64,000 nucleotides of DNA from Halobellus sp. MBLA0158 (GTDB lineage: Archaea; Halobacteriota; Halobacteria; Halobacteriales; Haloferacaceae), in the NCBI RefSeq assembly GCF_041477585.1, contig NZ_JBGNYA010000001.1, forward strand, positions 992,001 through 1,056,000, written 5' to 3'. How positions within the stretch are numbered: the stretch's first letter is position 1; every line of letters starts with the position of its first letter. This document shows positions 39,609 through 42,445 of the stretch, piece by piece. Below the pieces are notes generated by a model. The model was not told the origin of the DNA and did not search any database. It was given only the letters and a program-made list of their open reading frames with translations. The position numbers and the translations under genes were made by a program.

Positions 39609-39687
39609 CTATGTTCATTAACGGACTCTTTTGCACATAAGGTTTGCGTGTCGGTGTCGTTTAGTCGCCGCGAGCACACGTCCGAGT
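39609..39687. promoter_or_regulatory. Divergent promoter between trpC and DUF457-like gene
   Basis: 79-bp divergent region that is AT-rich near the trpC side (ATGTTCATTAACGGACTCTT at about 39611-39630, TTTTGCACATAAGG after). A TATA-like CTTATGTGCAAAAG occurs on the minus strand 20-40 nt before the trpC start. Both genes probably have their promoters here. Confidence 0.45.
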
Positions 39688-40197
39688 GTGCTTCCGTCCG
39701 AGCACTTCATCGTCGCCCTGGTCCCCGCGCTGGCGTACGTCCTCGCGCGCGATCGGCGGTTGCCGACGCCGCGGTTCGCGGCGGTCGTGTTCCTGGGCAG
39801 CCAGTTCCCTGACCTTGTCGACAAGCCCCTGGCCCACCAGTTCGGCGTGCTCCCCTCCGGGCGGGTGTTCATGCACTCGCTTCCGATCGCGCTTCCGTTC
39901 CTCGCCCTCGTCGGCCTCTACGGGTGGCGGACCGACCGCCCGCGGCTGAGCGGCGCCTTCGCGTTCGCCCACCTCTCGCACCTCCTCGCCGACAACTACA
40001 GGCCGCTCTTGGGACCGGACCCGACGGTCGCGCCCGACCTGCTCTGGCCGCTCACCGCCCCGACCGCGCGGCCGATCACGCCGTACTGGGCCGGGCCGAA
40101 CGGGATCAACGTCCTACTCTGGACGGTCTTCTCGGCGATCGTCCTCTCGATTGCGGCGTATCTCCTCGTCGTGGACGTCCGCGAGCAGTTCGGCTGA
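39688..40197 (+). CDS. Membrane-bound metal-dependent hydrolase, DUF457-like
   Basis: 169-aa protein with four or so helices, second YdjM-like gene of the window. The start GTG 39688 gives MLPSEHFIVALVPALAYVLA. The Asp-rich hydrolase motif is VFLGSQFPDLVDKPLAHQFG, with RVFMHSLPIALPF and FAHLSHLLADN holding further His and Asp. Function unknown. It is divergent from trpC. Confidence 0.75.
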   Translation: MLPSEHFIVALVPALAYVLARDRRLPTPRFAAVVFLGSQFPDLVDKPLAHQFGVLPSGRVFMHSLPIALPFLALVGLYGWRTDRPRLSGAFAFAHLSHLLADNYRPLLGPDPTVAPDLLWPLTAPTARPITPYWAGPNGINVLLWTVFSAIVLSIAAYLLVVDVREQFG

Positions 40198-40263
40198 CCA
40201 GGCGAGGTTCGGGCAGACCGGTCGTCCCCCATATTGAATGTGCCTGGGCCGCAACTCCGTCCC

Positions 40264-40548
40264 GTGTCCCGGGACTCCGACGACGGCGTCCGCGTGTGGC
40301 TAGTGGAACGAACGTATTCGGATGACGAGCAGAACCTCATCATCCTCACGTACGCGACGCCGGACGGCGAGCGCTACTTCCGCAAGGAGCGGGCGCTGAC
40401 CTCGTTCAGCGACGTCCGCGACACGACCGCGGCCGTCGAGGCCGACCCGGACAACCTCGGCGCCGTCGACGACGCCGCCCAGCGCGAGCAGTACGCCGCC
40501 GAAGCGCGGCGGATGCGGGAGCTCCACGATCCGGACGACGTCATCTGA
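40264..40548 (+). CDS. Uncharacterised haloarchaeal protein
   Basis: 94-aa small acidic protein. VWLVERTYSDDEQNLIILTY is followed by DGERYFRKERALTSFSDVRD, looking like a compact beta-strand pair then helices. Its start is uncertain: GTG at 40264 gives a compact reading and an ATG at 40234 adds ten residues. It has no cysteines or membrane helices. I do not recognise a domain. Confidence 0.65.
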   Translation: MSRDSDDGVRVWLVERTYSDDEQNLIILTYATPDGERYFRKERALTSFSDVRDTTAAVEADPDNLGAVDDAAQREQYAAEARRMRELHDPDDVI

Positions 40549-40672
40549 CGACGGCTGCCGCACCTGTGACGGCGCCCGACCGGCTCCGAACTGCGGCGAA
40601 CGGCCACCGAAGGGTCGTGGTAACTCGACCCTCGGAAGGATTATCCCCCGCTCTCCCATCCGTTCGGTTGCA

Positions 40673-40879
40673 ATGGCACACGGTAAGGTTGAATTCTTCA
40701 ACGACACAGGCGGTTACGGTTTCATCTCGACTGACGACGGCGACCTCGACGACGACGAAGACGTGTTCTTCCATATGGAAGACGTCGGCGGCGAAGACCT
40801 CACGGAAGGTACCGAAGTCGAATTCGACATCGAGTCCTCGCCCAAGGGCCCCCGCGCGGCGAACGTCGTCCGACAGTAA
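40673..40879 (+). CDS. cspA: Cold shock protein (CspA-like)
   Basis: 68-aa single CSD protein, an RNA/DNA chaperone. RNP1 is GGYGFIS (about 13-19) and RNP2 EDVFFH (about 29-34). The acid insert DDGDLDDDE before RNP2 is a halophilic feature not found in E. coli CspA. TATA-like GGATTATCC at about 40635-40643 is 29-38 nt before the start. It stands alone. Confidence 0.93.
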   Translation: MAHGKVEFFNDTGGYGFISTDDGDLDDDEDVFFHMEDVGGEDLTEGTEVEFDIESSPKGPRAANVVRQ

Positions 40880-40999: not shown

Positions 41000-41452
41000 A
41001 TGGACGTCGGCGTCTTCGCTCGGACCTCCGAGCGGTTGGATCGAGCCGTCGAGATCGGCGTCGCGAGCGGTCGGGTCATCAGCGTCTCCTTCCCCGAGAC
41101 GCCCCCGGGCGACGCGGACTCCGACCACCCGCTCTTGGACCGCGTGTTCGCGTACCTCGACGGCGAGGCGGATCATTTCGACGACGTTGCGGTCGCGCTG
41201 ACGGTGCCGACCGACCAGCGGCAGGTGCTGGAGGCGATCCGGAACGTCCCCCACGGCGAGACCGTCTCGCTCGACCGCGTGATCCGGATGGCCGGCCTCA
41301 ACCCCGACGAGCGGGAGGACGTCGAGACCGCGCGGACGGCGCTCGCGGAGAACCCGGTGCCGCTTTTCGTGCCCGATCACCGCGTCCGCGACGCCCCGGG
41401 AGCCGCGCCGTCGGCGGTGGCCGAGCGACTGCGGGCGATCGAGGGGGCGTAA
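41000..41452 (+). CDS. MGMT/Ogt-like DNA-binding protein lacking the catalytic Cys
   Basis: 150-aa protein. The N-terminal half is a small alpha/beta domain. The C-terminal half fits the methylguanine-DNA methyltransferase domain: VLEAIRNVPHGETVSLDRVI (about 74-93), then ALAENPVPLFVPDHRVRDAPGA (about 114-135). In true MGMT the motif is P-C-H-R-V; here it is PDHRV with Asp in the Cys position. It therefore cannot self-alkylate and is better called alkyltransferase-like. It is convergent with the LamG lipoprotein gene. Confidence 0.78.
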   Translation: MDVGVFARTSERLDRAVEIGVASGRVISVSFPETPPGDADSDHPLLDRVFAYLDGEADHFDDVAVALTVPTDQRQVLEAIRNVPHGETVSLDRVIRMAGLNPDEREDVETARTALAENPVPLFVPDHRVRDAPGAAPSAVAERLRAIEGA

Positions 41453-41467
41453 GCCGGACTGTGGGGA

Positions 41468-42445
41468 CTATCGCCCGGCGATGTCGCTGATCTCCGAGGC
41501 GCTCAGCGCGCGGCGGTAGAATCGGTAGTCGTCGAGTCCGCCGTTGTAGTCCTTCCAGCCGTCGGCGCCGTTGTTGCCGAACATCAGCGCCGTGTCCGTG
41601 CCCCGAATGTTGTCAGTGTAGTCGATGGCGTAGTCCTCGCTCCCGTCGACGTACAGTTTCATCCGATCGTTCGGCTGGTCGTAGACGAACGCGACATGGT
41701 GCCACTCGCCGTCGAGGACGTTCGCGGAACTCTCGCCCACCGTGTTGGCTCCCGAAGTGAAGAGGAACGGGTCGCCGCTCGTGTCACAGAACGACCCGAC
41801 GCTGTTTCCGTTCTCCGTCGTTACCTTCCAGAGGAGGTCGTCGTCCCACCTGGAGTTCGTCTCGTCGTCCTTCAGCCAGTGGCAGAACGTGTAGGGCTGG
41901 TCCGTTTCGATCTCGATGAAATCGACCGACGCAAAGCCGGGAAACGACGCCGACTGGGACCCTTCGGGCCCCGATGCGTATTCGACTCCCGACCCCGAGA
42001 GGTCGTAGGTGCCGGTCTCGTCGGCGAGGCCTCCCTCGAACCGATATCGCGTGACGAGTGCGCTGTCGTCGTCGGGCGTCGCGGTTGCGGTCGGTGTCGC
42101 CGTGGGCGTCGCAGTCGGCGTCGATGTCTCGGTTTCCGTGGACGTCGCTGTCGACGCCTCGGTCGCCGTACTCGTGGCCGTGGTCGTCACCGTCTCCATC
42201 TCCGAGGGACGCGGCGATGCCGTCTCGGGGGGCGTCTCGGTCGATTCGCCGGACGCGCCCTCGGAGTCGGTCGCCGGATCCGCCTGTTCGGTCGGTTCGT
42301 CCTCGTCGCTCCCGTCGCCCCCGTCGCCCACCTGGACTTCCACGGACGGAATCTCTACGGTGCATCCCGCCAGTCCGGAGAGCGATCCGACGAGAGCCGT
42401 CGCACTCAGCTTCTTCAGCGCCAGCCGCCGACTTCTGTCCACCAT
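41468..42445 (-). CDS. LamG-domain lipoprotein (Tat signal)
   Basis: 325-aa extracytoplasmic protein. The N-terminus has RR (DRSRRLALKKLSATALVG) and lipobox LAGC, suggesting Tat export and lipid anchoring. A low-complexity Thr/Ser/Ala/Glu linker covers residues about 45-120 (TATSTATEASTATSTETETS). The C-terminal 200 residues form a concanavalin-like LamG/laminin-G_3 fold (YRFEGGLADETGTYDL, WHHVAFVYDQPNDRMKLYVD, GGLDDYRFYRRALSASEI). It may bind glycans at the cell surface. The DNA of the linker has an imprecise tandem repeat. Confidence 0.85.
   Translation of the reverse strand: MVDRSRRLALKKLSATALVGSLSGLAGCTVEIPSVEVQVGDGGDGSDEDEPTEQADPATDSEGASGESTETPPETASPRPSEMETVTTTATSTATEASTATSTETETSTPTATPTATPTATATPDDDSALVTRYRFEGGLADETGTYDLSGSGVEYASGPEGSQSASFPGFASVDFIEIETDQPYTFCHWLKDDETNSRWDDDLLWKVTTENGNSVGSFCDTSGDPFLFTSGANTVGESSANVLDGEWHHVAFVYDQPNDRMKLYVDGSEDYAIDYTDNIRGTDTALMFGNNGADGWKDYNGGLDDYRFYRRALSASEISDIAGR

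Follow-up and report, generated by a model that had tools for sequence, protein, structure and literature searches.

Halobellus sp. MBLA0158 encodes an MGMT homologue, P0001, in which the alkyl-acceptor cysteine is replaced by aspartate. P0001 is rather likely to be a pseudo-alkyltransferase that occurs throughout the haloarchaea and works by binding and not by base flipping. The gene was identified in a stretch of 64,000 nucleotides, referred to here as the window, and its relatives with the same replacement are referred to as the Asp-form family.

Identification of the gene and its acceptor site

The open reading frame extends from an ATG to a TAA codon and codes for a protein of 150 amino acids with the MGMT/AGT fold; the translation includes ENPVPLFVPDHRV. 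The features of the gene are summarized in Table 1. Pfam model PF01035 matched residues 73 to 135 with an E value of 1.2e-8 and a score of 35.1 bits, which is above the cut-off of 27, and the NCBIfam ogt model (TIGR00589) gave 31.7 bits, which is below its cut-off of 46.4. When P0001 was aligned with Mtb Ogt (E value, 8e-5), the PCHRV motif of MGMT was found opposite PDHRV, with D126 (codon GAT, positions 41375 to 41377) at the acceptor site. The MGMT homologue with Asp instead of the active Cys, as reported in the preliminary description, was therefore borne out. The real Cys is not located elsewhere, as the whole translated protein contains no cysteine at all. With Asp in place of the acceptor Cys, alkyl transfer to a cysteine is impossible for P0001, and the protein is presumably unable to act as a normal alkyltransferase.

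No second PF01035 match beyond P0001 was found in the genome of this strain (3.29 Mb, 2 contigs). Of 163 named relatives, the best 80 were taken, and the closest of these to P0001 were proteins of Halobellus species, with identities of up to 82%.

Table 1. Location of the MGMT-like gene and its features in the window. Codons 112, 118 and 148 are those which we take to correspond to G131, N137 and E172 of human AGT.
Feature	Position	Strand	Basis
Asp-form MGMT-like gene, P0001, 150 aa	41000..41452	+	ORF, PF01035, Mtb Ogt alignment, AF2, VIA-align
N-terminal AGT domain, which classical ATLs lack (approximately residues 1-67)	41000..41200	+	AF2, structure alignment from residue 2
C-terminal domain, once DNA-binding (approximately residues 68-150)	41201..41449	+	PF01035; ATL structures align to 68-150 only
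Codon 91, base-flipping Tyr position (human Y114), Leu	41270..41272	+	Family column count
Predicted recognition helix, residues 105-116, acidic segment, insertion relative to MGMT	41312..41347	+	AF2, alignment, charge
Codon 109, Glu at the Arg-finger position (human R128)	41324..41326	+	Family column conservation
Codon 112, helix Gly position (presumably human G131), Arg	41333..41335	+	Family column count
Codon 118, hinge Asn (presumably human N137)	41351..41353	+	Invariant, 142/142
PDHRV motif, Asp for alkyl-acceptor Cys; His and Arg invariant	41372..41386	+	Translation, family alignment
Codon 148, Glu at catalytic Glu position (presumably human E172)	41441..41443	+	Invariant, 142/142

Distribution of the Asp-form family

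A homologue of P0001 was present in all 60 sampled genomes of its own taxonomic family, and the family profile gave a match in 194 of 194 sampled Halobacteria, which represented 65 of 65 genera. Across 294 genomes sampled from the phylum, the matches outside the Halobacteria scored no more than 61.1 bits, while family members within the Halobacteria scored 111 to 261 bits (both among the matches listed).

The acceptor site was read in 156 loci from a subset of the 194 genomes, corresponding to 143 distinct proteins. These loci comprised 30 of the 60 matches from the own family, a set selected manually from other genera, the 80 best of the 163 named relatives, and every available genome of three small families. 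Two weakly matching rows of the three small families and six second matches, of the Cys type, stand outside the counts. Locus L093 was dropped from the family set, as it holds a broken Cys-MGMT copy instead (L093:1582-2016, reverse strand, genome G159), the frame of which is lost upstream of PCHRV. Genome G159 also has a strong PF01035 match at another place.

The residue at the acceptor site was Asp in 137, Ser in 4, Gly in 1 and Cys in 1 of the 143 distinct proteins. The Asp form is under purifying selection, with dN/dS values of 0.07 to 0.36 in 15 of 15 close pairs. A sequencing error was ruled out by the recurrence of Asp together with these values, a recent single-strain mutation by the recurrence itself, and a pseudogene by the presence of the family throughout the sample and the low dN/dS. 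Although a decaying relic without function would be in line with the drift of the acceptor residue, which has become Ser or Gly in one of the families of Halobacteria, retention of the gene in every sampled genome, the selection acting on it and its many invariant positions already contradict such a relic, which is improbable to the point of being negligible.

Fold and comparison with AGTs and ATLs

The AlphaFold2 (AF2) model of P0001, obtained with 75 sequences, had a pLDDT of 95.7 and a pTM of 0.87. The N-terminal part of the model contains strands at residues 4-10, 15-22 and 25-30 and a helix at residues 44-53. PF01035 was matched by all 75 members of alignment A2 at an E value of 0.01 or lower. 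When the model was compared with known structures using VIA-align, the top matches were AGTs without exception and covered the full length (model residues 2-150). The alignment with the Sulfolobus AGT gave a Z score of 17.4 and an rmsd of 2.2 Å over 139 residues, compared with a Z score of 6.2 over 75 residues, in the C-terminal half only, for Schizosaccharomyces pombe Atl1 (3gva). The structure comparison with MGMT and ATL1 that had been proposed as a check thus yielded an AGT fold.

The family shares both domains, the full-length fold, the hinge Asn, the PxHRV turn and the His-Glu pair with the AGT/MGMT/Ogt proteins (PF01035, TIGR00589). It differs from them in having Asp for the acceptor Cys, in lacking the Tyr and a conserved Arg finger, in the replacement of the helix Gly by Arg, in a shortened substrate loop and in an acidic HTH segment. 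Like the ATLs, such as S. pombe Atl1, E. coli ATL (YbaZ) and T. thermophilus TTHA1564, the family is related to AGTs and has no acceptor Cys. However, the ATLs consist of the C-terminal domain only, while the Asp-form family keeps the N-terminal AGT domain. At the Cys position the ATLs have Trp, or in some cases Ala, whereas D, S or G was present in 142 of 142 proteins of the family. The ATLs also keep the Arg finger and the Tyr, neither of which is conserved here. Retention of these two residues and the predominance of Trp at the Cys position are described for ATLs in a review (PMC10779285), in agreement with the earlier remark that Trp is usual there. By the residues which define the two groups, the Asp-form family is related to AGTs and yet stands outside both AGTs and ATLs. 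No paper on the haloarchaeal Asp-form family was found in the open-licence literature.

The best PDB sequence matches of the family profile were to SNAP-tag, an engineered human AGT. The recognition helix of SNAP-tag reads VKTALSGNPVP, compared with VRTALAENPVP in the consensus of the family profile. The changes in the SNAP-tag helix were made to reduce DNA binding; a literature search on the purpose of these changes found no paper. Unlike the Asp-form family, SNAP-tag is man-made and has kept its reactive Cys.

Conserved pocket frame and lost DNA-contact residues

Asn118, His127, Arg128, Glu148, Thr68 and Arg74 were each invariant in the 142 distinct D/S/G proteins, and Asp occupied the acceptor site in 137 of these 142. 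The distance from this site to the Glu was 21 to 22 residues. As the hinge Asn, the His and the Glu are invariant, the Cys alone has gone from the Asn-Cys-His-Glu network. With the acceptor as the sole change in this network, Asp predominant at the site and His and Glu invariant, an Asp-based enzyme was considered. The alkyl group would be transferred to its carboxylate to form an ester that can be hydrolysed, or a metal would be bound via Asp, His and Glu, so that the protein would act as a turnover dealkylase on DNA or on a free nucleotide. Such an enzyme is very unlikely, because Ser or Gly replaces Asp in five tree rows by five changes while the frame is unchanged, because the substrate loop and the Tyr are gone, and because a carboxylate is a poor nucleophile for such an ether-like bond. 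The probable role of the Asp is that of a polar residue which, by hydrogen bonding, holds the pocket or a ligand in the pocket.

In the column of the base-flipping Tyr this residue was present in 0 of 142 proteins and was replaced by Val, Leu or another residue. The Arg-finger column ranked last in conservation among the 142 proteins (150 of 150), although 28 of them had Arg at this position. The helix Gly was found in all 37 Cys-MGMTs read, compared with none of the 142 family proteins, 115 of which had Arg instead. The substrate loop of the Cys-MGMTs was shortened in the Asp-form family.

The median charge of the HTH segment was -5 in the 145 Asp loci, compared with -1 in the 30 Cys-MGMTs from haloarchaea and +3 in 7 Cys-MGMTs from other archaea. 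The corresponding median charges of the whole proteins, per 100 amino acids, were -11, -6 and +5. The acidity of the HTH segment is therefore partly that of the protein in general, as the segment is just slightly more acidic than the whole. DNA binding is compatible with an acidic helix in a cytoplasm containing molar KCl, and acidity alone does not exclude it.

Descent and order of changes

In a tree of 74 proteins, which took in 14 of the 30 Cys-MGMTs and in which the bootstrap was not fully settled, all D/S/G forms fell into one clade (support, 100/98). The sole Cys protein of the family, L062 from genome G074, was sister to all D/S/G forms (100/96), and the haloarchaeal Cys-MGMTs formed a separate clade of their own (100/99). 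In an RpoB tree with 21 other Halobacteria, G074 branched as the sister of all of them (100/98). Among the 68 named loci that extended for 5 kb to either side of the gene, 58 had divergent trpC and trpB next to it, and 40 had CPBP protease and LonB next to it. For the G074 locus no synteny was found within 18 kb. The tree, the RpoB placement and the synteny together indicate that the Asp-form family is the vertically inherited archaeal MGMT of the Halobacteria, which, as judged from the sequences, was inactivated early in this class. Gene transfer or a plasmid origin was rejected, as only two weak plasmid matches (from rhizobia) were obtained and both tree and synteny were vertical.

In L062 the PCHRV motif is intact, as are the Tyr and the substrate loop, but the Arg-finger site is occupied by Asp and the helix Gly site by Arg, and the acidic insertion is present. 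As the helix changes are already present in L062 and the Cys is kept, the DNA-facing helix appears to have been remodelled before the Cys was lost, an order which rests on one intermediate, MAG-like genome. The loss of the Cys, the Tyr and the loop would have followed the divergence of the G074 lineage and would lie close to the root of the class. The Ser and Gly forms, which occupied five rows and arose by five separate changes on the tree, were nested among Asp relatives, so that in the D/S/G clade Asp probably preceded Ser and Gly and can be replaced.

Genome G074 (loci L062 and L198) is small (1.9 Mb), early branching and assembled in 120 contigs, and may be a useful outgroup for class-wide traits. 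The GC contents of the two contigs fetched were in agreement (0.569 and 0.563).

Haloarchaeal Cys-MGMTs and the possible recognition of alkylated DNA

The distribution of a separate Cys-MGMT in the Halobacteria was patchy. A second strong PF01035 match was present in 69 of the 194 genomes according to a hand count, and all 30 of these matches that were read (L032-L061) had PCHR. These 30 proteins had Val or Ile at the Arg-finger site, Cys at what we take to be position 134 of human AGT, and both the acceptor Cys and the Tyr, the latter in the motif T[RM]xYG (30 of 30 by eye). As the Arg finger is also missing in these presumably active proteins, its loss in the Asp-form family is no proof.

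The preliminary description had suggested that the Asp form recognises alkylated DNA and recruits nucleotide-excision repair. Such an ATL-like sensor would recognise O6-alkylguanine in DNA by a high-salt contact mode and pass the lesion to UvrABC. This suggestion agrees in part with the data, as the C-terminal AGT domain and an invariant pocket frame are present, UvrA is encoded in the genome (1366 bits), and the Arg finger is missing from the haloarchaeal Cys-MGMTs as well. Furthermore, as a Cys-MGMT occurs in just 69 of the 194 genomes, most Halobacteria need another route for O6-alkylguanine. In one publication Halobacterium salinarum NRC-1 is described as being without an MGT1 homologue, and its route of O6-methylguanine repair is left open (PMC2816208). 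Two Halobacterium loci (L123 and L124) were among the Asp-form relatives. A term search in a review on repair in H. volcanii gave no mention of methylguanine, MGMT or Ogt (PMC7776575). The suggestion is weakened, as the Tyr and the Arg finger that define ATLs are not conserved, the helix Gly has changed to Arg, the HTH segment is acidic, the N-terminal domain is kept, and Asp is present where ATLs have Trp or Ala. In addition, no repair gene was found among the class-conserved neighbours tested (trpC/trpB, the CPBP protease and LonB). Overall, an ATL-like sensor is rather unlikely.

Proposed function

As the features of ATLs (Arg finger, Tyr and Trp) fail here, a pseudo-alkyltransferase acting by binding is favoured. 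The Asp-form protein probably stopped repairing DNA by itself and was kept for another binding job. Its most likely mode of action is that of an adaptor or regulator which binds and does not flip DNA bases. According to the proposed mechanism, the DNA-facing helix of the single vertically inherited MGMT of the Halobacteria would have been remodelled first, by loss of the Arg finger, replacement of the helix Gly by Arg and the acidic insertion. Later, near the root of the class and after the G074 split, the protein would have lost its acceptor Cys, its base-flipping Tyr and its substrate loop. Strong selection would have maintained the pocket frame, Asn-(Asp)-His-Arg...Glu, and the two AGT domains, and the resulting adaptor or regulator would use the preserved pocket frame and the domain interface. 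The least certain step is binding to something other than damaged DNA, either a partner or a ligand, which may occur, with slightly less than even confidence.

As a counterpoint to a function in binding only, the invariant pocket could be a sign of catalysis. In a more far-reaching alternative, the only inherited MGMT of the Halobacteria would have turned from DNA before the loss of the Cys, and the Asp-His-Glu pocket would bind or convert a non-DNA ligand, which may be a free nucleotide, for example, as a core function of the whole class. This alternative is unlikely. If true, it would mean that the AGT fold was repurposed outside DNA repair, and no report of this was found in the literature searched.

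If P0001 is a pseudo-alkyltransferase acting by binding, an entire class of archaea would have a dead MGMT among its core genes (194 of 194 sampled genomes), and an intermediate form would still be available. This would be a clear example of the conversion of a repair protein into a pseudoenzyme, testable in the genetically tractable genera Haloferax or Halobacterium. Database labels for Asp-form proteins would have to be read differently, and the question of how O6-alkylguanine is handled in the majority of Halobacteria, which are without a Cys-MGMT, would become sharper.

Local gene neighbourhood

An assignment of function from the neighbouring genes was rejected, as the conserved neighbours are not repair genes and the cold-shock protein (Csp), YdjM-like, LamG and 104-aa ORF neighbours are local. 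In the window, trpC and the MGMT-like gene are separated by an insertion of three genes (positions 39631-40879). These are a gene for a membrane protein resembling YdjM, the 104-aa ORF, which had no Pfam match, and the gene for the cold-shock protein, and each of them was common to 0 or 1 of the 68 named loci. On the other side of the gene, at positions 41468-42445 on the reverse strand, a putative lipoprotein is encoded, which has a Thr/Ser-rich linker and a LamG/ConA-like domain and was present in 1 of the 68 named loci.
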